From the IMG/VR virus record IMGVR_UViG_3300005340_000081, positions 1 to 22,291 of that record: a stretch of 22,291 nucleotides of DNA. One strand, given 5' to 3'. The notes beneath the pieces were generated by a model. The model worked only from the letters and a program-made list of their open reading frames with translations, did not search any database and had not been told where the DNA came from. Position numbers and translations under genes: made by a program. The DNA comes from a virus. This document shows positions 8,305-20,654 of the stretch, one piece after another (position 1 is the first letter of the stretch; each line of letters starts with the position of its first letter).

Positions 8305-8437
8305 GGTTCTTTTCTTTGACGGCTACGGGCCGAACAGTTCGCCGATGTCAGCCTGTCCGCCGTCTGTCCGGTTTTGGTCCGGCATGCCGAGGGCGTCATC
8401 GAGCGCGCTGTCCGACCATTGTCCGCTCGTTGTCCGG
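8210..8437. repeat. Two clusters of 11-bp phased TGTCCG repeats: candidate replication origin
   Basis: Cluster A has units starting at 8210 (CGTCCGG), 8221 (TGTCCGG), 8232 (TGTCCGG) and 8243 (TGTCCAA), each exactly 11 bases apart. Cluster B has units at 8354, 8365, 8376 (GGTCCGG), 8409, 8420 and 8431, again on an 11-base grid with two degenerate units between. A reversed copy (CGGACA) lies at 8280-8285. Between the clusters, 8290-8322 is AT-rich. The clusters span the end of the primase-helicase gene and the start of the next gene. Eleven is not a multiple of three, so the pattern is not a by-product of a repeated peptide. Iterons around an AT-rich stretch within a replication gene recall phage origins such as lambda ori in O. 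Confidence 0.7.
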
Positions 8438-10740
8438 TCGCCGGCGTCCTTCGGCCGGGTCTCCGGAAAGCCGCGGATGACCTTGCCGGTCCATGACAGC
8501 CAAGGGCGCTTCCAGACGATGACGCCGGACGCGATCATGAAGCGCGAATAGCGGTCGAACCGCTTGCGGATGGCATCATCGCCAGGCGCTTCGCCTGCCT
8601 CGCCGCCGGCCACGCCCTCGACCTTGTAGGCCTCGCGCCAATCCCGGTAGTGCACCGCCATCCGATCGGCCGGCACACCGAGCGCCACCATCTCCTCGTT
8701 CGGCGCAACGGGTGCCTTGCGCAGGGCCGACAGCAGCGCGCGGAAGATCGGCTCCTCGGTCGGACGCAGCGCGAAGCCTTGAGCTGCCGTCTTCTGCTGC
8801 AGAGCCTCGTCGTCGCCGAGCGCGACGACCACGCACGACGTGATCGGGTGGCCGTCGGGCTCCTTGCCGACGTTCACGACCTGCAGCTTAGAGACCAGCG
8901 TACCGCCCTCCGGACCGTCCTTCATGTATTCGACCGTGGTGACGACGTTCTTGGCAGGGTCGCGCCGGATCGAGATCTGCGCATCCGCGGCGCCCGTCAG
9001 GCTGGAGTGCCCGCGCGGGCGCGCGCTCTCGATTCCACAGTGGTGGACGATCGGGACGACGCAATTGAACGCAGTGCGCACGGCGTCGGCCGCCTTCACA
9101 TAGTTGCCCATGTCCTGGTCGGAGGATTCCGAGCCCTGCAGCGAGCGGTTCAGGGTGTCGATCGCGACGACTGCCGGGTTGACGCCCGCAGGCAGCTGCG
9201 CGCGGATATCGGCGATGAGCTGCAGGTGATCGGCGACCAGGTTGAGACGCTGCGCGATCACGTAGAACGGCACCGGCTCGGTGCGGCTCTCGAGGAAGCG
9301 CTGACGGAACGCCTCGATACGATCGGAAAAACCTGTTTCGCCTTCCAGTATGACGTAGACGACGGCGCCCTGCTCGACCTTGCGGTTGCGATACGACCAG
9401 CCGAGCGCGACGTGGAACAGGAGATCGGACGTCCAGAACGATTTCCCGCACTTCGGCGGCCCCCAGATCACCACGACGCCGGTGAGTGGGATGATGCCGC
9501 GGACTAGGTAGCGCGGGCGCGACGAGACCTTCACGTCGCCGAAATGCACCATCTTGAAGCGCGGTGGCTTCGCCGGCGTTTGGCCGGCGGGACCGTCCCA
9601 TGGTGCATCATGCTGGTGCTCGGCGCGCGGCGCCCAATCCTTCGCGGCCGTCTCGGCGAGCCCATAGAGATCCTCAACGCTGTTGCCTTCCGCGAGCCAG
9701 TCGACGATATCGCCCTTGACCGGCAGGTCCGGCAGCTCGAGCACGCGCACACGCGCGGCGACGCCGTGCAGTTTGGAGGCGACGAGGTCCGCGTGATCTT
9801 TGCCGGGGAGCTTCTGCCGCCCGTCGGAATGGAAAAGAGGCTCGCCCTCGGCATTCGTCGACTGCGGGTCGTTATCCGGCAGGATGACGACGTCGGCGTC
9901 GCGAAAGTATTCGACGAGGTGATCGCCGAACTTGCCGGCGCCGCCCGAGTTGCACGTCGCCGGCGCGCCGGCCGCAATCAGTCGGTCGACCTTCTTTTCA
10001 CCTTCGACCACGAAGACCAGCCGCTCCATGGAGAGCGCCTCGAGCAGCTCCGCCACACGGTAGAGGCCATGCTGGATATTGGCGCCGACGAAGGTCCGGC
10101 GCTCCGTGTACCGCCACTCTTTGAAGTCGCGTTCGTCGAACCTTGACCAATCGGCACCCGGCCCGCGGCGCATGAATTCGTGCGGGTTGCCGTTCCGGTC
10201 GATGAGGTCGAGGCCCCAAATCCAAACGCCCTGCTCGTCAGGGGCAGGCCTGCGTTGGCCGAACGTCTTCCTGATCTTGCCGTCCTTATTGCGCTCCCAT
10301 CCGCCATCAGCGGTCCGAAACTGAAAGCGGACAACTTGGTAGGACAGCGCACCATCGGGCGCGACATAGTCGAAGGTGCCGACGATCTCGCGCTTTGGCT
10401 TCCGCTGCTTTCCCTCACCGTTCGGCCGGGAGGAATGGTCATCATGACCATTCCTGTGCACGCCATTCGACCGCGGCCGATCATCGACGTCGCAGCCGAG
10501 TTCCTTCAGGTAGGCGAAGGCCTCTGCACCCTCGAACCCCTTGCGTGCCTTGATGAAGTCGAGCACGCCGCCACCGCGGGACTCGGCGTGGTCGAACCAT
10601 GTGCCCTTCTCGATGTCGACCGAAAGCGAGCCGTTCGTCCCGTAACGCAGCTCCTTGCCGACCTTGGAGAGGCCCCAATTAGGATCGCCCAGAATAGCCT
10701 GGGCGACGACCGGCATATGCAGGGCGAGATCCGTTGCCAT
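8323..10740 (-). CDS. Bifunctional primase-helicase (TOPRIM + RepA-like P-loop ATPase)
   Basis: 805 residues from the ATG at 10740, with GGTGA just upstream; an ATG at 10755 is possible. Residues ~25-85 resemble the primase zinc-domain fold (SVDIEKGTWFDHAESRGGGV) but lack the usual Cys ligands. Residues ~120-165 carry the FDYVAPDGALSYQVVRFQFR element often found before phage TOPRIM domains. TOPRIM is at ~240-350 (LVFVVEGEKKVDRL, NSGGAGKFG, VVILPDNDPQ). A RecA/RepA-type ATPase is at ~405-650, with Walker A IWGPPKCGKSFWTSDL (~426-441), Walker B-like VVAIDTLNRSL, and VPIVHHCGIE with GHSSLTGAAD downstream. The C-terminus has a likely winged-helix and an acidic tail. It should prime and unwind phage DNA. 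Relative to common phage forms there is an insertion before TOPRIM (GLDLIDRNGNPHEFMRRG). The phased repeats lie in its last 120 bases. Confidence 0.85.
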   Translation of the reverse strand: MATDLALHMPVVAQAILGDPNWGLSKVGKELRYGTNGSLSVDIEKGTWFDHAESRGGGVLDFIKARKGFEGAEAFAYLKELGCDVDDRPRSNGVHRNGHDDHSSRPNGEGKQRKPKREIVGTFDYVAPDGALSYQVVRFQFRTADGGWERNKDGKIRKTFGQRRPAPDEQGVWIWGLDLIDRNGNPHEFMRRGPGADWSRFDERDFKEWRYTERRTFVGANIQHGLYRVAELLEALSMERLVFVVEGEKKVDRLIAAGAPATCNSGGAGKFGDHLVEYFRDADVVILPDNDPQSTNAEGEPLFHSDGRQKLPGKDHADLVASKLHGVAARVRVLELPDLPVKGDIVDWLAEGNSVEDLYGLAETAAKDWAPRAEHQHDAPWDGPAGQTPAKPPRFKMVHFGDVKVSSRPRYLVRGIIPLTGVVVIWGPPKCGKSFWTSDLLFHVALGWSYRNRKVEQGAVVYVILEGETGFSDRIEAFRQRFLESRTEPVPFYVIAQRLNLVADHLQLIADIRAQLPAGVNPAVVAIDTLNRSLQGSESSDQDMGNYVKAADAVRTAFNCVVPIVHHCGIESARPRGHSSLTGAADAQISIRRDPAKNVVTTVEYMKDGPEGGTLVSKLQVVNVGKEPDGHPITSCVVVALGDDEALQQKTAAQGFALRPTEEPIFRALLSALRKAPVAPNEEMVALGVPADRMAVHYRDWREAYKVEGVAGGEAGEAPGDDAIRKRFDRYSRFMIASGVIVWKRPWLSWTGKVIRGFPETRPKDAGDRTTSGQWSDSALDDALGMPDQNRTDGGQADIGELFGP

Positions 10741-10744
10741 GCGG

Positions 10745-11131
10745 TCACCGGTCATCAAGGACGGCGGCGGTCATCCCGTCGATCGCGATGTAACTCATCA
10801 ACTGCGCGACCAGCGCCCGCAGGCTCGTCCCCCGCTCCGTCGCCTCGACGGTCAGCTTCTGCGCGACCTCGGCGCTCACGATGATGCCGTTGAGCTCGAT
10901 GGTCCGCGCCTTGGTGGCATCGATGCGCGCCACGGCGCGATCATCTGCAGCTGGCCGCTCGACCTCCCGATCGGGCCCGAACCGCAGTGAGATGCCCATC
11001 TCCGAGGCGAGGTTGCGCAGCGTCCCGCGCGAGATGCCGAGCCGCCGCGAGATGTCGCGCGACGGCATCGTTCCGGCCAGGCGCCTGATCTCGGCGCGCG
11101 TCGTGCGGGTGTTTTCGAAGGGGGCGTTCAA
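10745..11131 (-). CDS. HTH DNA-binding protein
   Basis: 128 residues from the ATG at 11131, overlapping the upstream stop as ATGA. The N-terminal half has a helix-turn-helix: TRAEIRRLAGTMPSRDISRR followed by LGISRGTLRNLASEMGISLR (~residues 10-50). After an Arg/Asp linker, residues 80-118 (IIVSAEVAQKLTVEATERGT, SLRALVAQLMSYIAIDGM) resemble a ribbon-helix-helix-like or oligomerisation element. The layout (DNA-binding domain plus dimer domain, directly ahead of the primase-helicase) suits a regulator or an origin-binding protein. It is one candidate for binding the phased repeats. Confidence 0.6.
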   Translation of the reverse strand: MNAPFENTRTTRAEIRRLAGTMPSRDISRRLGISRGTLRNLASEMGISLRFGPDREVERPAADDRAVARIDATKARTIELNGIIVSAEVAQKLTVEATERGTSLRALVAQLMSYIAIDGMTAAVLDDR

Positions 11132-12030
11132 ATACGCGCCTCCGGCATCCCGTTGTGCTCGACGCCATCGAGGAGACGGCCGGCGGCCTTCTTACCGACC
11201 CTATAAAGGTCTGGCTCATCGTCGACGTGGCCCTCGCAGTTCGCGAGGTTCTCGCGGCTCATGAGCCAGCGATCGTCAAACCATGCGGCGGTTTCGACGG
11301 TGCCGCGCTGGCGCTCGACGTTCTCGCCGGACGTCCACTCACCCCACTGCTTGAATAAGAACGGCACGCGAGCCTCGGCGCATTGGTCACGGAGCGAGCT
11401 CGCCCATTCCGGATGCATCGGCCTGGCATGGGGTCCGGATTCACCGCCGACGATGACCCAACCAGGCAGCTTCCCGCGTGCATTGATCGGACCAAGCATC
11501 GGCTCCACGCTGGCGAACGTGAAGCGTGCACCAAGGACGAGACGCGCATGCTCAAGTTTCGGCAGATCCCGGTCCCATTCCTCCTGATTGATCATGGTCG
11601 CGCCAAGCGCGGTGTTCTCGGGCAGCGCAGCGCCTGACCCGTGGCGCGCGACGTCGCACATCTTCTCGGCATTGCCGATGCGTTTCGACAGGAGCAGGTA
11701 GAGCAAATTCGGCGTTTTGCGCATCACGTCGAACGCCTGCGTGCGCCAAAGCGGGTCGACTTCGTTATCCCATATGTCGCCGAGCGAGAGGCAGAACACG
11801 GTCGCGATCTTGCCGGCCGCAGTAGCTGCGCGGTCCCATTTGAACGGCTCGCGCCAATTTCCCGGCGAGGTCCGGACGCGATCCTGGCCGGCGCCCCACT
11901 TCGCCTTGCCGTAGCGCTCATCCATCATCACGCGGGCGTAACAGTGATCGCACGCTGGGCTGACCTCCGTGCATCCGAACCACGGATTCCAAGTATGGTC
12001 GCACCACTCAATCTTCGTGTTCTCAGCCAT
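11128..12030 (-). CDS. Phage Gp37/Gp68 (DUF5131) three-Cys-motif protein
   Basis: 300 residues from the ATG at 12030, overlapping the upstream ATPase stop. The N-terminus MAENTKIEWCDHTWNPWFGC, followed by C27 and C30 in SPACDHCYA, is the DUF5131 signature: a C-x6-C-x2-C motif (C20, C27, C30) inside a TIM-barrel-like chain that resembles radical SAM enzymes. Further hallmarks are SLGDIWDNEVDPLWR (~100), LLYLLLSKRI (~125), FASVEPMLGPI (~195), VIVGGESGPHARPMHPEW (~215) and FLFKQWGEW (~250). The protein is expected to carry an iron-sulfur cluster. The family is widespread in phages, and its substrate is not known to me. The 'three-Cys-motif partner' TcmP that often accompanies such proteins is not seen here. 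Confidence 0.85.
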   Translation of the reverse strand: MAENTKIEWCDHTWNPWFGCTEVSPACDHCYARVMMDERYGKAKWGAGQDRVRTSPGNWREPFKWDRAATAAGKIATVFCLSLGDIWDNEVDPLWRTQAFDVMRKTPNLLYLLLSKRIGNAEKMCDVARHGSGAALPENTALGATMINQEEWDRDLPKLEHARLVLGARFTFASVEPMLGPINARGKLPGWVIVGGESGPHARPMHPEWASSLRDQCAEARVPFLFKQWGEWTSGENVERQRGTVETAAWFDDRWLMSRENLANCEGHVDDEPDLYRVGKKAAGRLLDGVEHNGMPEARI

Positions 12031-14027
12031 TGGCGACCTTTTCCATGATCATCTCTCGCGCGCGCGTCTTCCCGACCTGACGCTCGTAACTGCGGTAGAG
12101 CTTCTGCATCTTCGGCGGGCACTTGAACTTCGCGGCCGTGAGTCGCGCCGCGACCTTCTCAGTCTTTGTTGCCTCCGCCTTCAGTTGCGCGCCGGCGCCG
12201 CGGCCGCGGAAGTCGAGCCGCAGCTGACCGGCCATGCGGGCGACGGTCGCGTAGGTTCGGCCCGGCAGCAGCCTCGGCACGTCGACAAGCTTGATGCCGT
12301 CCGAATGCGCCTTGCGGAGCAGCGCTTTCTCGTCGTCTGTCCACTTGAGCCGCTGCTTGAGGCCTAGCTGACTTGCCATATTCAGGATTGCGCCGCGTGA
12401 GCGATCCATGACCTGCATGATCTCGGCAGCCGACTTGTTCGCGTTGTACATCTCGGTCAGCATCGCGATGTCCGCGTCGGTCCACGGGATCGCGCTGTTG
12501 CGGCTAATGCCGTTGCGCTGTGCGAACTTGGTGATCCCCGTCACGCCGCGTTCGAAGCCGGCGGCCTTGAGCATCATGATGATCTCGCGCGTGGACTTGC
12601 CGTCGTTCAGGCCGGCGAGCGCAATGTCCGATTCTTCCTTGGTCCAGTAATTGACGCGATCGCGCGTGATGCCGAGAGCGATGGCGCGCATTTGCACGGC
12701 AACGCGGCCGCGGCTAAAGCCGTTCTCCGCAAGTCGCGTGACGATATCGATGATTTTGGTCTCCTTGAGATACTCGTCGCGAATGATCGCGTCCTCTTCA
12801 TCGGACCAGCCGATGATCGCTCGAGCGCTGATGAGGCCGAGCGCGTGCGCCCGGGTCGAGATGCCGCTCGTTGATACAATGCAGTTGGCGGCCGCGAGCT
12901 GGTTGGCGATCTCGGCGAGCGGCGTACCGGCGCCGTAGCCGTCGCGGATGATCTTGTCGTGATCGGGCGACCAGTCGATTCCGCGCTTGCCGCGTCGCGA
13001 CATGTGGTTGGCGACTACGGACGGCATGGCCTCCGGGTCCGCGTCCGGAACCGCCTTGAGCAGATCGAGCGCCGCCGCGGAGCTGATAGCGGGCGGCGCG
13101 GTGATCGCCGGCGCCTCACCCTTGTGCCGGGACTCTGCGGCAGCCGCCCGGAAGCGCACACGTGTCGGACCGGCGAGCGCGGGCCCGAGGCACAGGAACT
13201 CGCCCGCCGCGAGCGAGCGGAGCGCCCGAGCAGCGCCCGCGGTGAAGCCGATCAGTGCGCCGGCGCGCTCCTGGTCGATATCGAAGACGGTGCAGCCGAC
13301 TATGACGTTCGTCACCTTCGCGACCACCGCCTTCGACGTCTCGGCCAGCCGTTGCGTCGCGATGACGCCGGCGACGCCTCGCTTGCGGCCGCGCCCCATC
13401 ATGTCGGCAAGCGCCATGATCGCGCGCTTGCGCGTCTCGGGCTCGACATCGCCCGGATCGTAGTGAGGTGCCAGCGTCTGCGCCTCGTCGACGTGCACCA
13501 GTAGCGGGTGGCGGTGTTCTACAGGGCAGTCGATCAGGCCGGACGCCAGGTCGGCAACGATCGCCATTCTCTGCTCAGCTGTCGCGTCGGAGAGATCCAG
13601 CACAGCGCTATACCGATGCTCGCGCAGATGGAACGCGAACGAGCGCCCCCCCCACCCGCAGCACATCGGCCGCGCTGAGTACGGCCACGTCGAGCTTCTC
13701 TGCGAGCGTCGAGAATTCTCCGTCAGGGTCGACGAGCAGCTGCTGCACACGCCCGAAAGCCTGCTCGAAGATGCGTCGCAGCAGCATGGACTTGCCGGCG
13801 CCGCTATTACCCTGGATCAGCAGGCGCCCCTCGATCAGTTTGCCGAGGTCAAGACCGACGACGTCGCCGTTGCTCATCCGGCCGAGTTCGATCGACCCTT
13901 CGCGGAGCGGGCGCGGCTCCGGCGGTGCCGGAGGTTTCGGCGCCCCTGATCCTCCAACCCCAAACCCGCGGCCTGCGAGGGCGGCACCGAATGCGCTGTC
14001 CGCCGCGCGCGCGTCCATAACGGTCAT
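12023..14027 (-). CDS. HerA-type P-loop ATPase fused to five GcrA/Myb-like HTH repeats; frameshifted
   Basis: Two overlapping frames form one gene. It starts at the ATG at 14027 (ATGA overlap with the gene upstream) and would give 667 residues if one G of a G8 run (13646-13653) were removed. Residues ~40-290 are a HerA/FtsK-like hexameric translocase: Walker A LLIQGNSGAGKSMLL (~69-83), Walker B PLLVHVDEAQTLAP (~174-187), then GRGRKRGVAGVIATQRLAE and VGCTVFDIDQERAGALIGF, as in HerA. A Pro/Ala linker leads to five DNA-binding repeats at W352, W407, W461, W515 and W562, spaced 47-55 residues and each built as W[ST]..(D/E)...I......EI...L......A..LG[IL]. A basic tail follows. It probably moves or remodels DNA at bound sites. 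No NurA nuclease is next to it. The broken frame may be a sequencing error, a real mutation or recoding. Confidence 0.75.
12215..12985 (-). other. Region encoding five tandem GcrA/Myb-like HTH repeats
   Basis: The five units begin DWSPDHDKIIRDGY, GWSDEEDAIIRDEY, YWTKEESDIALAGL, PWTDADIAMLTEMY and KWTDDEKALLRKAH. They share a leading Trp, an acidic cluster and a middle EI/DI/DV, and most end in an A..LG[LI] helix. The fourth and fifth are shorter and look closest to the N-terminal HTH of the GcrA protein encoded at 16793-17371 (DWTSDAVERLKALWADGLSA). They have diverged in sequence, so the duplication is not recent. Confidence 0.75.
13646..13653 (-). other. Frameshift point in the HerA-type ATPase (run of eight G on the coding strand)
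   Basis: The N-terminal frame reads ...ADVLRVGG then loses similarity (ALVRVPSARASV, stop at 13608). The frame one base further on takes over with GGRSFAFHLREHRYSAVLDL, which continues the ATPase fold. The switch falls exactly in the homopolymer, needing a net +1 shift (one G fewer, or two more). It is the only clear frame break seen in the window. Confidence 0.8.
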
Positions 14028-14287
14028 GCCGACATCCCCTTCTCTCGCCACTTCTTGAAATCCGCCGCGCGCTCGCGGATGTAGGCAATCGCCATCTCGG
14101 CGTTCGCCACGACGGTCGCCGCCGCCTCGAGCACGTCCGCCCGACGGTTGAGACCCGACGCCGTCCCGGGCGAGCAGGCGCCTGCCCAGATGCGGGCATG
14201 GTCGGCTTCGGCTTGAACGGTCAGGATCATGTCGCGGACTTCGATTCTTGGTTTCTTGGCCGCTGGCGCTGAGGGTTCGTCGGTCAT
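14024..14287 (-). CDS. Small helical protein upstream of HerA-type ATPase
   Basis: 87 residues from the ATG at 14287 (ATGA overlap upstream); its own stop overlaps the ATPase start in the same way. The N-terminus is a short disordered stretch (MTDEPSAPAAKKPRIEVRDM). The rest is helical: ILTVQAEADHARIWAGACSP and LEAAATVVANAEMAIAYIRE, ending in a basic RAADFKKWREKG. No family recognised. Coupling to both neighbours suggests it works with the ParB-like protein or the ATPase. Confidence 0.65.
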   Translation of the reverse strand: MTDEPSAPAAKKPRIEVRDMILTVQAEADHARIWAGACSPGTASGLNRRADVLEAAATVVANAEMAIAYIRERAADFKKWREKGMSA

Positions 14288-15138
14288 GCGGTGGCGGCCT
14301 CGAGCCGCTCCTCGAGATGCGCGCCGAGCGACTCGATCAACGCAGCCGTTACCGTCATGCCGTCGTCGAATGAGCGCTTGCATGCGGCGTGGTACTCGGC
14401 GCCGAAGTTGAAGGTTTGCATCGCGCGGATCAGCGCCTTCTCATCAGCGAGCCAGTCCGGCTCGGCGTCGAGAGTCACGCACAGAGCATCGATGATCGCG
14501 GCGCGCAGACAGCCAGGGTTGCCGAGCTTGGTGCGCGTAATGCAACGCAGCGCGGAACGCAGGACGTCTGGCCCGTAACGCTTGAGCATCAGCGGCAGCT
14601 TGCCAGCGGCGAGCGTCTCGCCCGGCTTCATTAGCTTTGCGGGAACCGGATAGTGACAGATCGCGACATCTGCATCCGCCAGGACCGCCGCGAGCGCCAC
14701 AGCATCCTCATCACCGGCCACGACTCGGGCGTGATAGAGGTGCATCGCGGTGAGCGCGGTGACATTGCTGTTGATCGCCGCAAACGCCGTCGCCTGCATG
14801 GCGGTGCTGATCTTCACGATCTGGCAGGGCACGTCCTTGATCCCGCGCAACGCGGCTCCGGTCGTACGGTGCTGGCCGTCGATGACGAGGAAGATACCCT
14901 GGTCTGCTTCAGACACGATCACAGTGCCGAACTTGGCCCACGAGAATTCACGCGCGATCTTGCGGACGTTTTTGGCACCGCGCTCAAAGATCTCGCGCTG
15001 ATAACTCGGATCGATGCGCAACAGGTCGATCGCGATCCAGCGCAGCTGCGGCTTCTCGCCGGGGTCGTAATGCGGCGGCAGCGGCTGGCGCGGATCGGCG
15101 AACTGGCGGCCGTCGATTCTTCGTAGCGTGAGCGTCAT
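14284..15138 (-). CDS. ParB-like (ParB/sulfiredoxin fold) protein, DUF6551 type
   Basis: 284 residues from the ATG at 15138, which overlaps the upstream stop as ATGA. Residues ~30-110 match the ParB/Srx N-terminal fold: LRWIAIDLLRIDPSYQREIF, a middle strand GTVIVSEADQGIFLV, and the signature IDGQHRTTGAALRGI (~86-100). In this fold the GxxR/DGQHR region binds nucleotide in ParB relatives and acts in some nuclease-like members. Residues ~110-284 are helical (FAAINSNVTALTAMHLYHAR and onward), as in the DUF6551-like proteins of GC-rich phages. Those proteins usually lack the HTH of true partition ParB, and no ParA is present, so a partition role is unlikely; a DNA-processing or regulatory role is more plausible. 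Confidence 0.72.
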   Translation of the reverse strand: MTLTLRRIDGRQFADPRQPLPPHYDPGEKPQLRWIAIDLLRIDPSYQREIFERGAKNVRKIAREFSWAKFGTVIVSEADQGIFLVIDGQHRTTGAALRGIKDVPCQIVKISTAMQATAFAAINSNVTALTAMHLYHARVVAGDEDAVALAAVLADADVAICHYPVPAKLMKPGETLAAGKLPLMLKRYGPDVLRSALRCITRTKLGNPGCLRAAIIDALCVTLDAEPDWLADEKALIRAMQTFNFGAEYHAACKRSFDDGMTVTAALIESLGAHLEERLEAATA

Positions 15139-15500
15139 CGCCGCCCTCCCCGCACGAAATCGATCAGCCGCTTCCAGACCTTCCGCTCGGCCTCCGGCTC
15201 GACGCGGGCGAGCAGCGCGCGGACCTCGGCCTCGTGTGGGATGAGGCGCTTCATTAGGTCGTGCGCCTCCGCGATCCGTTCGCGATGCTTGCGCTCGGCG
15301 CCGAGAATGTGCGCGGTCGCGTCTTCGGAAAGCCCGATGCGCGCGGCCAGGACGTCGATCTTTAAGGCGCGATCGGACGCGAAGGCGGACTGGACCCAGG
15401 TCGCCCAGGCAAGTTCGGCGAAGTCGACGTCGCCGGTGGACTTTGCCACGGACAATTCGACGGCCAATTCTGCAAATGAGCTGGTCGAGAGGTCGGTCAT
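15135..15500 (-). CDS. Hypothetical helical protein
   Basis: 121 residues from the ATG at 15500, ATGA-coupled on both sides. Mostly helical. A short segment, LAARIGLSEDATAHILGAER (~51-70), has helix-turn-helix spacing. The C-terminus is basic (KVWKRLIDFVRGGRR). No family recognised. It sits directly before the ParB-like gene in the operon. Confidence 0.6.
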   Translation of the reverse strand: MTDLSTSSFAELAVELSVAKSTGDVDFAELAWATWVQSAFASDRALKIDVLAARIGLSEDATAHILGAERKHRERIAEAHDLMKRLIPHEAEVRALLARVEPEAERKVWKRLIDFVRGGRR

Positions 15501-15718
15501 GCCGCGATCCTTCCGATGGCGACTTCCGTTTCGTGCGACTGCTCGACGGCATCCTCACCGGGCCCTCCGGGGCCGTCGTCACCGACGAGTGCGACAAGCT
15601 CGATGCTTTCCAAGCGGTCCTCGATCCGATCCAGCTTGCGGTAGATCACGATCGGCCAGATCAGGATCGACGCGATCAGCGAGATGAGCAGGAAAGCGAC
15701 GAAGAATTCGGTGATCAT
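15497..15718 (-). CDS. Small single-span membrane protein
   Basis: 73 residues from the ATG at 15718, coupled to the resolvase stop as ATGA. A hydrophobic segment fills residues 4-26 (EFFVAFLLISLIASILIWPI). It is followed by a short charged helix, RKLDRIEDRLESIE, like the start of a coiled coil, and an acidic Gly/Pro tail. The topology resembles small phage inner-membrane proteins of the early region. Function unknown. Confidence 0.62.
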   Translation of the reverse strand: MITEFFVAFLLISLIASILIWPIVIYRKLDRIEDRLESIELVALVGDDGPGGPGEDAVEQSHETEVAIGRIAA

Positions 15719-16287: not shown

Positions 16288-16764
16288 TCAGTGCTTGGCG
16301 AGCGAGTCGACGGCGGCCGCCTTGGCGTCTGCGCCCTTGCCGACCTTGGCAAGCTCCGCCTCGTCGGCGCGTGCCTGGTCGGCTTGCTTCAAGGCATCGG
16401 GGCGAAGATCGCGTTCGTCATCATCGTTCTTCGATTTATGACCCGCTGCCTTCGCTGCCGCTGCACCGAGCGGGCCGAGCGCCTCGCAGAGGAGCTCATA
16501 GGCTTCCGCCTCATCCTCATCGAGACCGTCGGCGATCGCGTTGAGCTTCTTGTCGAGAGCGCGCATCTTCACGACGCCGCGCAGCGCCTTCACCGGGACG
16601 CCGGCGTCCTTTGCCTCGGCATAGATTTCCTTGATGTCTTCGCGCCGCTCTTTGCACTCGGCCATATAGGTGCCCTTGGCCGACTCCATTTCGGCGAGCA
16701 GCGTCTCGATCCGCTTCAGGTATCCTTCCGCTTTGCCTTCCATCGAGTTCTTGGCGAGTGCCAT
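16288..16764 (-). CDS. GapR-like nucleoid protein (DUF2312 family) with long C-terminal extension
   Basis: 158 residues from the ATG at 16764, with a strong AGGAGGAG upstream. Residues ~10-100 follow the DUF2312/GapR pattern: helix EGYLKRIETLLAEMESAKGT, the hallmark DIKEIYAEAKDAGVPVKALR (~43-62), then VVKMRALDKKLNAIADGLDE and AEAYELLCEALG. Host GapR (about 90 residues) forms a tetrameric clamp on overtwisted DNA ahead of polymerases. Here a further ~55 residues, charged and Ala-rich (KNDDDERDLRPDALKQADQA), extend the chain. It lies between GcrA and the RuvC-like gene in the same operon. The phage copy may manage supercoiling at the replicating phage genome or interfere with the host protein. 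Confidence 0.78.
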   Translation of the reverse strand: MALAKNSMEGKAEGYLKRIETLLAEMESAKGTYMAECKERREDIKEIYAEAKDAGVPVKALRGVVKMRALDKKLNAIADGLDEDEAEAYELLCEALGPLGAAAAKAAGHKSKNDDDERDLRPDALKQADQARADEAELAKVGKGADAKAAAVDSLAKH

Positions 16765-16792: not shown

Positions 16793-17371
16793 TCAGGCCT
16801 GCATCAGCCGTTCTTTGTGGGCGGCAAGGTTCTTTCTCGCCTGGATCGCGCGCTGCGCACGGACGGCGTCGGTCAGCTCCGGCAAGCTCCGCCGGCTGGT
16901 CTGCACGCTCAGCCGATGGTGTCGCGGGCAATACGAGTGCTCGCCGTCGCGCGGTGAGCCGCAGACGAGCATGTCGGCGGCCGGGAAACCCAGCGGCCAA
17001 CAGCACTGCGCACGCTTGCGGTCGAGGAACGCGACGGCATCGGGTGATTGGTCAGGCGGCAACTCGACCGCGACCTCCGCCTCGAATTTGTGCGGATCAT
17101 TTTCAGCGCGAGGCTTCGAGGCAATGCGACGCAGCATGCCGGCGTCGGCGCGCAGGGTGAGACGCTGCACCGGCCGCGGCTTCGCCTGACCGACATTGGC
17201 CTGGTGGCGACCGGAAAGACCGAGCCGGTGCACTTTGCCAATGACGCCGTTCCGCGATGCGCCTATCTCGCGCGAGATCTGGCTCGCGGACAGACCGTCA
17301 GCCCAGAGCGCCTTCAAACGCTCGACCGCATCGCTCGTCCAATCGAAGCATTCAACACCGGGAACGCCCAT
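16793..17371 (-). CDS. gcrA: GcrA-family cell-cycle regulator
   Basis: 192 residues from the ATG at 17371, with GGAGAGGTGGA upstream. Residues ~10-55 are the GcrA DNA-binding domain: DWTSDAVERLKALWADGLSA, then SQISREIGASRNGVIGKVHR and LGLSGR, an almost consensus match. The C-terminal block is also typical: QCCWPLGFPAADMLVCG...SYCPRHHRLS, with four Cys/His positions and the conserved WP-G. In Caulobacter and relatives GcrA binds RNA polymerase sigma70 and activates promoters with CcrM-methylated GANTC sites. The 70-residue middle differs from the host-type linker. The phage copy could redirect host transcription or drive phage promoters. No CcrM-type methylase is encoded in the window. Confidence 0.88.
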   Translation of the reverse strand: MGVPGVECFDWTSDAVERLKALWADGLSASQISREIGASRNGVIGKVHRLGLSGRHQANVGQAKPRPVQRLTLRADAGMLRRIASKPRAENDPHKFEAEVAVELPPDQSPDAVAFLDRKRAQCCWPLGFPAADMLVCGSPRDGEHSYCPRHHRLSVQTSRRSLPELTDAVRAQRAIQARKNLAAHKERLMQA

Positions 17372-17372
17372 G

Positions 17373-17639
17373 TCAGTCCACCTCTCCGCAGTAGTTCTTC
17401 GGCTTCGTCGGCCGCCGCCCATCGAGCACCACGCGGTCAAGGATGTCGGCTTGGCGAGCGATGACCGTAAAAGCCCGCTCGGGCCCGACGCGCTGGACCA
17501 GCATTTCGGCGACGCCGGCGAGCAGCCCCTCGGCCGTCGCGATCGTCGCCTCGTCGGTTGCGTTCGCCGACGGCACGAAAGCGGCCTTGGCGAACATCTC
17601 GGATTTCTTGCGGATGAGGTCGGCGGTGGTCTGCGTCAT
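17373..17639 (-). CDS. Hypothetical protein upstream of gcrA
   Basis: 88 residues from the ATG at 17639, which overlaps the stop of a 54-codon gene as ATGA. The chain is helical: TTADLIRKKSEMFAKAAFVP, EATIATAEGLLAGVAEMLVQ, then AFTVIARQADILDRVVLDGR. No motif recognised. One base separates its stop from the gcrA ATG, so translation is probably coupled. Confidence 0.62.
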   Translation of the reverse strand: MTQTTADLIRKKSEMFAKAAFVPSANATDEATIATAEGLLAGVAEMLVQRVGPERAFTVIARQADILDRVVLDGRRPTKPKNYCGEVD

Positions 17640-19318: not shown

Positions 19319-19573
19319 TCATGCGGCGGCTCCCGACGCGGAGGGCACAGCCGGCTCGATGTCGAAAAAATCGTCAGGGGTAAGGGCGACGTCGTTTTCG
19401 CGCGCGAGCCTCAGGAGCGTCGGCTGGTGGCGCGCCGGGATCACGCCACCGGTGCCGCCCTTCTCGCGCGAGTAGGTGAATTTGTAGACCTGCGCCAAGC
19501 TCAACCCGAGCCATTTCGCGACGGTCTGGTAGCCACCGCACTTGACGATCACGCGTTCGGCTGTCGTGTCCAT
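19319..19573 (-). CDS. Cro-like HTH repressor
   Basis: 84 residues from the ATG at 19573. Residues ~10-45 form a Cro/YdaS-type helix-turn-helix: IVKCGGYQTVAKWLGLSLAQ, then VYKFTYSREKGGTGG, with VIPARHQPTLLRLARENDVA following, the usual order for Cro-like proteins that choose operators opposite a CI repressor. The gene is divergent from the CI-like gene. Its ATG lies six bases after the -10 of a strong promoter (TTGACA, 17 bases, CAAATA), so the message should begin at or within a base of the start codon. A palindromic operator lies inside this promoter. Confidence 0.78.
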   Translation of the reverse strand: MDTTAERVIVKCGGYQTVAKWLGLSLAQVYKFTYSREKGGTGGVIPARHQPTLLRLARENDVALTPDDFFDIEPAVPSASGAAA

Positions 19574-19579
19574 TTGCGA

Positions 19580-19608
19580 TATTTGCTTTAATCGCAAATA
19601 TATGTCAA
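19580..19608 (-). promoter_or_regulatory. PR-type promoter for cro and the minus early operon
   Basis: On the minus strand: -35 TTGACA (19608-19603), a 17-base spacer, -10 CAAATA (19585-19580). The operator at 19581-19599 covers the spacer and -10. The expected start of transcription falls at about 19573, the A of the cro ATG. Confidence 0.72.
19581..19599. promoter_or_regulatory. Operator in PR (ATTTGCT-TTAAT-CGCAAAT)
   Basis: Seven-base inverted half-sites with a five-base centre, one mismatch between arms. An additional single half-site ATTTGCG lies at 19572-19578, next to the cro start, and a weaker one, ATTTGTG, at 19614-19620. Binding here would block the minus promoter. Confidence 0.7.
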
Positions 19609-19628
19609 GCCAGATTTGTGAAAATGCC

Positions 19629-19657
19629 CATGGCGAGATTTGCGTTTCTCGCGAATA
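19629..19657 (+). promoter_or_regulatory. PRM-type promoter for the repressor (weak)
   Basis: By the geometry of the other two promoters, the -10 is CGAATA (19652-19657) and the -35 position holds CATGGC, a poor match. The start of transcription would fall at about 19664-19665, on the repressor ATG, which has no Shine-Dalgarno sequence. A weak -35 fits a promoter that is autoregulated or needs activation. Confidence 0.45.
19638..19656. promoter_or_regulatory. Operator in front of the repressor gene (ATTTGCG-TTTCT-CGCGAAT)
   Basis: Same 7-5-7 layout as the other operators, with one mismatch. It ends eight bases before the repressor ATG and covers the presumed -10, so binding should repress the repressor's own gene. 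Confidence 0.65.
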
Positions 19658-19664
19658 TGGGCCC

Positions 19665-20273
19665 ATGGATGAGCAGCAGCCGTACCGGAACTGGATCGCC
19701 GAGGGCTTGAAAAAGCCCGGGAAAGGCAAGCGCAAGCTCGCCGACGCGCTCGGCGTCGATCCTTCCGCGGTAACTCGGATTCTTGACGGAACCCGGCAGG
19801 TCAAGCTGCACGAACTACCGAAGATCGCGGCTTACCTCGAGGAACCGGCGCCCGAATCGGACGGCTTCTACGAGCCCGAGGCCACATACGAGGAAGGGCC
19901 CGGAACGGTGCCCGTTCGCGGTTACGTGGGCGCTGGCGCAATGGCCTTCTACCTGCCCCAGGAAGTCGAGCTGGACCGCGTGGAAGCCCCGCCAGGCTCG
20001 ACAGACGCGACGATCGCTCTCGAAATCCGAGGCACGAGCCTGGGCGAACTGTTCGACCGGTGGCTGGTATTCCTGGACGATATCCGCACACCGGTCACGC
20101 CAGATCTGATCGGAAAGACCTGCGTCGTCGGGCTTACCGACGGCCGCGTCCTGGTGAAGAAGCTCAAGCGCGCCGGCGGTGGCCTTTTCGACCTGCTGTC
20201 GAACACCGAGGAGCCGATTCGCTCTGTCGCGGTCGAATGGGCTGCGCGCGTCAAGACGATGGCGCCGCGCTGA
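19665..20273 (+). CDS. CI-like repressor with S24 (LexA-type) peptidase domain
   Basis: 202 residues from the ATG at 19665; upstream in-frame starts would run through the operators. The N-terminal HTH spans ~18-58 (GKRKLADALGVDPSAVTRIL, DGTRQVKLHELPKIAAYLE). The C-terminal LexA/UmuD-like domain spans ~83-200. Gly-Tyr-Val-Gly-Ala-Gly near residues 86-91 contains a candidate Ala-Gly self-cleavage bond, Ser125 in EIRGTSLGEL is the likely nucleophile, and Lys165 or Lys166 in RVLVKKLKRA the general base. The usual GDSM is GTSL here. It should maintain lysogeny by binding the ATTTGC operators and be inactivated in the SOS response through RecA. Confidence 0.85.
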   Translation: MDEQQPYRNWIAEGLKKPGKGKRKLADALGVDPSAVTRILDGTRQVKLHELPKIAAYLEEPAPESDGFYEPEATYEEGPGTVPVRGYVGAGAMAFYLPQEVELDRVEAPPGSTDATIALEIRGTSLGELFDRWLVFLDDIRTPVTPDLIGKTCVVGLTDGRVLVKKLKRAGGGLFDLLSNTEEPIRSVAVEWAARVKTMAPR

Positions 20274-20480: not shown

Positions 20481-20574
20481 CCTGCACTCGGACTGGAATG
20501 CTCACACCAAAAATCGAGTTCATTGCGTGCGTTACAGGGCACCGCCGGCCTCGGCGCGCATGCCTTGCAAATAA

Positions 20575-20593
20575 ATTTGCTATAACAGCAAAT
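20575..20593. promoter_or_regulatory. Upstream operator of PL (ATTTGCT-ATAAC-AGCAAAT)
   Basis: Perfect 7-5-7 palindrome lying just upstream of the -35 of the plus-strand promoter. Its centre is 34 bases from the next operator, close to three helical turns, so repressor dimers could contact each other. Confidence 0.72.
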
Positions 20594-20599
20594 ATCTGG

Positions 20600-20628
20600 T
20601 TGACTCCTATTTGCGATTAGCGCAAATA
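20600..20628 (+). promoter_or_regulatory. PL-type promoter of the plus early operon
   Basis: -35 TTGACT (20600-20605), a 17-base spacer, -10 CAAATA (20623-20628). The expected start is near 20635, twenty bases before the first ATG. The same hexamers, spacing and embedded operator occur in the cro promoter. GACTC at 20602-20606, a GANTC (CcrM) site, overlaps the -35. Confidence 0.72.
20609..20627. promoter_or_regulatory. Operator inside PL (ATTTGCG-ATTAG-CGCAAAT)
   Basis: Perfect 7-5-7 palindrome between the -35 and -10 and overlapping the -10, in the same position as the operator in the cro promoter. Binding would exclude RNA polymerase. Confidence 0.75.
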
Positions 20629-20654
20629 TCCTCCCCACGACCGGGGAGCCTGCC

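Follow-up and report, generated by a model that had tools for sequence, protein, structure and literature searches.

Five GcrA-like helix-turn-helix units on a predicted HerA-type ATPase in phages of alphaproteobacteria

Introduction

DNA motors of the HerA and FtsK kind are usually told apart by their partners. HerA is known from the HerA-NurA, HerA-SIR2 and HerA-DUF4297 systems, and in FtsK/SpoIIIE and TraB the motor is followed by a DNA-reading end; in FtsK and TraB this winged-helix end loads or orients the motor at a DNA site. Tandem three-helix DNA readers occur in Myb R1R2R3, SNAPc190 and Reb1, which are eukaryotic and do not carry them on motors. Sphingomonad plasmids such as Sphingobium baderi pDE1, finally, encode a module made of a DUF87 ATPase and a "hypothetical protein".

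Counter-invader systems are described in which HerA/FtsK domains have helix-turn-helix (HTH) domains as companions (PMC10853773), and GcrA homologues are known in phages, namely phiCbK (PMC3556154). As far as titles and opening lines of abstracts in the open-access literature show, we found no description of a motor followed by an array of such HTH units, in agreement with the initial annotation, which knew of no phage protein of this build; this is no proof of non-publication. Nor did we find there any paper bringing together HerA, phage, helix-turn-helix and GcrA, or GcrA, GapR and phage.

We analyzed a linear virus record of 22,291 bases (IMGVR_UViG_3300005340_000081, hereafter the window), whose source phage infects alphaproteobacteria. 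It encodes a HerA-type motor whose partner is a long reading head of five HTH units. What is new is the combination of a known motor with a known unit fold, together with an unexpected mode of change.

Results

One gene in two frames

A single gene joining a HerA-type ATPase to an HTH array had been proposed at 12023-14027. Both modules are indeed present, but the gene is split over two frames, and the break at a run of eight G had been silently read through. The features concerned are the following.

12023..14027, minus strand: whole gene, motor and five-unit array, split over two frames (intact frame in 17 of 17 relatives)
13608..14051, minus strand, 147 aa: first frame, N-terminal third of the ATPase with Walker A GNSGAGKS at 13788-13811 (DUF87, E=6e-9)
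12023..13750, minus strand, 575 aa: second frame, remaining ATPase with Walker B DE at 13484-13489, followed by the array (open reading frame, unit profile)
13646..13653, minus strand: run of eight G, site of the frame change (no such run in the homologous stretch of 11 listed relatives)

The 2005 bases from 12023 to 14027 do not make an integer number of codons and are covered by two overlapping frames, the second of which is in the motor reading frame only from about 13648 onward. Tryptophans W352, W407, W461, W515 and W562, given earlier as the starts of the units, are exact when the break is read through from the ATG at 14027; our own read-through begins at 13925 and numbers each of them 34 residues lower.

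Judging from the sequences compared, the break is private to the window record, as an error or a mutation, because all 17 relatives of the same build have one intact frame. A programmed frameshift was considered and rejected: the 11 listed relatives lack the G run in their homologous stretch, and 16 aligned relatives are open without it. The run is the sole homopolymer of at least eight bases in the window. Should the break be a true mutation, the window copy would be a dead gene, a question separate from the function of the family. The two frames of the record speak for this, yet we find it rather unlikely, since the break sits in the longest homopolymer of the window, where errors are common, and third codon positions are the most divergent on both sides of it. 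Differences from the relative L010 at codon positions 1/2/3 amount to 0.29/0.20/0.48 before the break and to 0.31/0.23/0.52 and 0.19/0.18/0.48 after it, a pattern from which it follows, at most, that any loss of the gene is recent.

A motor of predicted HerA/FtsK fold

The assignment to HerA-type ATPases was borne out, HerA profiles matching the read-through in addition to the DUF87 match of the N-terminal piece. DUF87 was found in 17 of 17 fused members and the Pfam family FtsK_SpoIIIE in only 6 of these 17. An AlphaFold2 model of L010, built from a 17-row alignment and of moderate confidence (mean pLDDT 71, pTM 0.49), consists of a RecA-like core and five three-helix units. The best fold match of this core is Sulfolobus HerA (4d2i; Z 26.9, rmsd 2.7 over 250 residues), after which come VirB4 (Z 22.6), TrwB (19.2), STIV B204 (17.7) and FtsK (17.6). 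The motor is thus predicted to have the HerA/FtsK fold and to lie nearer to HerA than to FtsK, from which it also differs by having no membrane part and five reading units rather than one.

The phage protein shares with HerA the RecA-like core and the Walker motifs but has no HAS-barrel: ahead of the core, the L010 model has just a disordered stretch (1-35) and two strands, and its alignment to 4d2i begins at residue 107 of the latter, the region ahead of which we take to be the HAS-barrel. Walker A (GNSGAGKS), Walker B (DE) and an RGRKRG motif are conserved in all 17 rows of the alignment, which does not include L051. The sensor glutamine (ATQR) is replaced by S or G in 4 of the 17 rows, which appears as a point against a translocase and calls for caution. 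A domain search found no nuclease domain in the motor-array protein. Its motor matches phrog_7035 (function unknown) and its array phrog_323, and no PHROG spanning both was among the matches listed.

Five units related to the GcrA DNA-binding domain

The array is made of the following units.

12833..12976, minus strand: HTH unit 1 (unit profile; three helices in the model)
12668..12811, minus strand: HTH unit 2 (unit profile; three helices in the model)
12506..12649, minus strand: HTH unit 3 (unit profile; three helices in the model)
12359..12487, minus strand: HTH unit 4, nearest the GcrA DNA-binding domain (5yiv_A, Z 8.6, rmsd 0.8 over 44; unit profile)
12215..12343, minus strand: HTH unit 5 (Pfam GcrA, E=1.5e-7; unit profile)

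In the window frame, a profile made from the separate-gene arrays of other loci detected five units, neither more nor fewer (E=4.2e-38), whereas the best E was 0.071 when the array was shuffled 1000 times; the units of this profile had first been located by the fused-family profile, so that the two are not fully independent. By the unit profile, all 17 fused relatives have five units like the window. Structure prediction, on which the initial annotation had staked the HTH nature of the units, gave five times three helices for the window's own array (AlphaFold2, mean pLDDT 80, pTM 0.32), in support of HTH folds; with so low a pTM, the placement of the units relative to one another is not predicted.

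The GcrA/Myb-like identity given to the units also stood. The top structural match of the array, on unit 4, is the DNA-binding domain of Caulobacter GcrA bound to methylated DNA (5yiv), with which it shares a three-helix unit (rmsd 0.8 Å over 44 residues). Lower Z values were given by Myb-type tandem domains and further structures, the likeness to Myb R1R2R3, SNAPc190 and Reb1 being weak, and Foldseek gave no match under E=0.001 for the window array. On unit 5, Pfam GcrA scored 32.4 bits (cut-off 26.9) over model positions 2-79 of 155. The rest of GcrA is not matched in the array protein, which, compared with GcrA, bears five tandem copies of the unit on a motor.

Fused and separate-gene relatives

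A first scan of IMG/VR with the window frame alone returned no relatives. With a small alignment, 37 loci were obtained, in 16 of which (L010-L024 and L044) a single open frame encodes both modules and aligns across the window's break without a gap; scanning with the array alone gave the same 16 fused contigs and nothing else. The 17th full-length fused copy (L051) comes from genome G233, in the order of Aminobacter. The motor family is widespread in that order (matches at E<=1e-40 in 185 of 397 genomes), but the protein is full length in just two of these 185, Aminobacter included, the other matches listed being the motor alone. One genome scan gave three loci; among them, L047 is identical with L044 and L050, all three standing for one prophage gene, that of Aminobacter niigataensis DSM 7050. 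In 50,697 phage records no fused relative was seen, and the two best matches have separate genes. The fusion is therefore genuine, being present in 17 of 17 relatives of the fused type (16 IMG/VR contigs and one genome).

In 14 other loci (L002-L007, L026-L028, L030, L031, L033, L034 and L045), on phages and plasmids including sphingomonad plasmids, motor and array are adjacent genes, which overlap by four bases in L002, L004 and L005, for instance. Four to seven units were detected in the separate arrays, the four being those of L003, whose array is in pieces. L052 has a motor with a two-unit neighbour, and in the other 13 IMG/VR loci of the scan no array was detected with the motor. The initial annotation had held that separate genes in homologues would speak against its reading; they do occur in the wider family (these 14 loci and L052), which counts against that reading there, but not in the fused clade. 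The separate-gene motor keeps a C-terminal domain, by eye a winged helix, that is absent from the fused form.

In a motor tree of 74 rows (leaving out L001, L009, L046, L047 and L050), the 18 fused rows, the window among them, make up one clade (100/100), and the 14 split rows make up a second (100/100). These two clades group together with L025, L029 and L052 (91/80), and 28 chromosomal rows form a clade apart (98/98). Because all the fused rows fall in one clade, the sequences point to a single origin of the fused state. By hhalign (99.9% probability), the five units of the fused form correspond to the final five of the split arrays. As for the described systems, the ATPase of the sphingomonad plasmid module is 33-38% identical over the aligned proteins and its array is related to the fused one (hhalign probability 99.9), the module differing by its two genes, its 6-7 detected units and the C-terminal domain of its ATPase. 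The alphaproteobacterial chromosomal ATPase encoded beside murI and rpsD (S. meliloti) belongs to the same motor family, in a neighbouring tree clade, but has no detected array.

Some members of this wider family deserve a separate mention. In L046 (6920-9739), a related ATPase is interrupted by about 355 residues that match LAGLIDADG_3 (E=9.7e-9), an insertion which, from its sequence, looks like an intein. In Methylobacterium (L048, 7614-8936), a five-unit array stands behind an OmpR-type winged helix (PF00486, E=1.1e-7), with no motor in place. The array of L003 (4087-5307), a faecal phage record, is broken into pieces of 287 and 99 aa. The ends of the distant phage motors L032, L036 and L042 resemble, by eye, two tandem winged helices after a coiled coil, and Pfam named no domain in them.

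Arrays exchanged on a nearly constant motor

Comparison of close relatives revealed that the array does not follow its motor. Between L016 and L044 (Aminobacter), the motors are 96% identical and the arrays 41%; DNA identity, about 0.85-0.9 over most of the motor, falls to about 0.5 in the array and recovers to 0.8-0.9 directly behind it. Single units can also differ. For L018 and L019 (motor 96%), unit 1 is 58% and unit 4 44% identical, with unit 2 at 98%, and for L021 and L023 (motor 94%) the greatest difference is in unit 4 (44% identical). In unit 4 of L018 and L019, differences at codon positions 1/2/3 are 0.42/0.42/0.49, as against 0.06/0.00/0.38 in the motor. Near-equal values of this kind would result from the replacement of the old unit by a diverged copy; strong diversifying selection may also produce them.

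Over 136 pairs, motor and array identities are uncorrelated (Mantel rho 0.01, p 0.41), whereas the two halves of the motor give a rho of 0.73, as high a value being reached in none of 2000 permutations, in which sequences and not pairs are shuffled. Arrays are less than 50% identical in 10 of the 21 pairs whose motors are at least 85% identical; L017 and L020 are near-copies (motor 99%), so that pair counts are not independent. L051 lies outside the rows of the fused alignment, the identity comparison and the correlation test. The window itself has a motor closest to L011 and L015 (74%) and an array closest to L010 (77%). For the split form, 12 loci gave a rho of -0.04, over a narrow range and with no internal control, L003 (broken array) and L045 (near-copy of L002) being left out. 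Altogether, these comparisons indicate that the array changes independently of the motor, as a whole or by single units. They show exchange and not its cause, since phages are mosaic in general, and in mosaic genomes exchange alone is no proof of selection on specificity.

Gene neighbourhood

The genes around the motor-array gene include the following.

14284..15597, minus strand: ParB-like protein (DUF6551), upstream neighbour, listed start provisional (phrog_1033, E=1.4e-22; DUF6551, E=2e-10)
11128..12030, minus strand: DUF5131 protein, overlapping the end of the motor-array gene by 8 bases (PF07505, E=1.4e-75)
8323..10758, minus strand: primase/helicase of the same block (phrog_906, 2.1e-30; AAA_25, 1.9e-30)

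The ParB-like neighbour noticed at first recurs in 11 of the 17 records examined, window included, in all of which it adjoins the fused gene or lies within about 1.3 kb of it, upstream in the window and downstream in the other ten. It was not seen in the other six, which may be fragments. In the fetched flanks of the 18 fused loci, relatives of the primase/helicase were found in 7, of DUF5131 in 6 and a RuvC-like gene in 6. A full-length GcrA homologue apart from the array is encoded by 10 of 17 records. The phage L025 resembles the fused phages in much of its gene order, but no array was detected with its motor.

None of the named HerA partner families (nuclease, SIR2) was found among the neighbours scanned, although the ParB-like protein may have a nuclease role. 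That HerA partners usually supply a nuclease is not a rule in this sub-family, whose relatives end instead, by eye, in winged-helix-like C-termini.

Other genes of the window also drew our attention. A GapR-like protein (16288-16764, minus strand; PF10073, E=2.1e-7) adjoins a GcrA homologue (16793-17440, minus strand; PF07750, E=2.9e-29, positions 2-149 covered), which places two host cell-cycle/nucleoid proteins on one phage. The DUF5131 protein matches the PADLOC candidate-defence profiles PDC-M41B (E=1.8e-47) and PDC-M30B (E=3.7e-46). Four copies of a 22-bp near-palindrome of the ATTTGC..GCAAAT type (19580-19601, 19637-19658, 20574-20595 and 20608-20629) form two pairs around a gene for a CI-like repressor (19542-20273, plus strand) and are probably operators. 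As the first pair overlaps the TTG start listed for the CI-like gene, the true start is likely later.

Search for a target site

It had been suggested that the protein loads at a repeated site such as phased 11-bp repeats; our searches gave this no support, as no repeated site was found. Repeats as a loading site were set aside after a tandem-repeat search of the window gave just short arrays; the single 11-bp period that the program listed amounts to 2.5 copies and lies in the primase gene (8409-8436). In none of the 18 fused loci, to which the window belongs, is any 11-mer repeated three times inside 400 bp, and the words enriched in the window and five phage records, most of them codon-like, contained no common or head-specific candidate.

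A separate observation concerns GANTC, which falls short of the number expected from a first-order Markov model by a factor of about 2.6 to 4.8 in the window and the 17 fused loci (31 observed against 124 expected in the window).

Discussion

The reading towards which we lean, and which we place just on the probable side, is that of a sequence-addressed translocase of double-stranded DNA with an exchangeable reading head, acting with its ParB-like neighbour on phage DNA. As the HerA fold suggests, the ATPase would form a hexameric ring and pump DNA. The five GcrA/Myb-like units of each subunit would bind a defined site, spanning very roughly 15-25 bp, and the array would load or orient the ring there, in the manner of the winged-helix ends of FtsK and TraB. 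Together with the adjacent ParB-like protein, the motor could then act on replicating or resident phage DNA, its task being to partition or resolve that DNA or to clear the replication region. The swapping of the reading head between close phages, as a whole array or as a single unit, would let each phage address its own site. In favour of this reading are the predicted fold, the catalytic motifs, the five units of every intact relative, the ParB-like and primase/helicase genes of the block, and the array exchange. Against it stand the searches that gave no repeated candidate site, the six records in which the ParB-like gene was not seen, the upstream place of that gene in the window, the sensor glutamine replaced in 4 of 17 rows, and the moderate confidence of both models.

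A bolder hypothesis, which we hold as tentative and on balance doubtful, is that of a modular address: each of the five units would read part of the site, and the units would be shuffled on a constant HerA-type engine so as to retarget the pump in phage or plasmid. If true, unit swapping would change the target DNA of the pump, comparable to the swapping of target domains in restriction enzymes, and a role would be given to the "hypothetical protein" encoded on many sphingomonad plasmids. L016 and L044 constitute a natural experiment on two questions, namely whether a ring motor takes its address from the head and whether there is a unit-by-unit code.

One could also imagine that the protein excludes superinfecting phages or competitors, the array recognising the DNA of other phages or plasmids, the motor stripping or scanning it and the ParB-like protein being a possible effector. 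A protein reading foreign DNA that changes would account for array exchange equally well, a rapid change of reading units suiting an arms race, and HerA/FtsK domains with HTH partners have been proposed in counter-invader systems (PMC10853773). Moreover, the window read-through matches the defence profiles HerA (E=4.8e-16; best HerA coverage 383-540 of 576) and mad8 of MADS (E=2.8e-13; 28-308 of 314). These matches are, however, limited to the ATPase, the protein has no nuclease domain, and the part of the neighbours that was scanned contains no other gene of HerA- or mad8-type systems, MADS included. The gene also sits by replication genes, and the spread of chromosomal motor relatives over 185 of 397 genomes of one order is more like housekeeping. 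We therefore judge exclusion improbable.

About as improbable, in our opinion, is a transcription regulator whose array would bind promoters like GcrA, the ATPase being only an oligomerising or remodelling platform. This would account for the resemblance of the units to GcrA, for the name of phrog_323 (D5-like transcriptional regulator, E=7.3e-22) and for the array behind an OmpR-type winged helix in Methylobacterium L048. Yet no more than positions 2-79 of the 155 of GcrA are matched, the catalytic motifs are complete, DNA pumps give the best fold matches, and the phage already encodes a full-length GcrA homologue.

Lastly, a genome-packaging ATPase of the virion, for which the fold shared with packaging ATPases such as STIV B204 would speak, is very unlikely and is disfavoured here, for the window has its own large terminase (phrog_979, E=2.9e-39), small terminase (phrog_1482, E=1.4e-32) and portal, and plasmids carry the two-gene form. 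A match to phrog_2 was found in 3 of 15 records and one to phrog_979 in 1 of 17, from which it follows only that the other records employ different families or are fragments.
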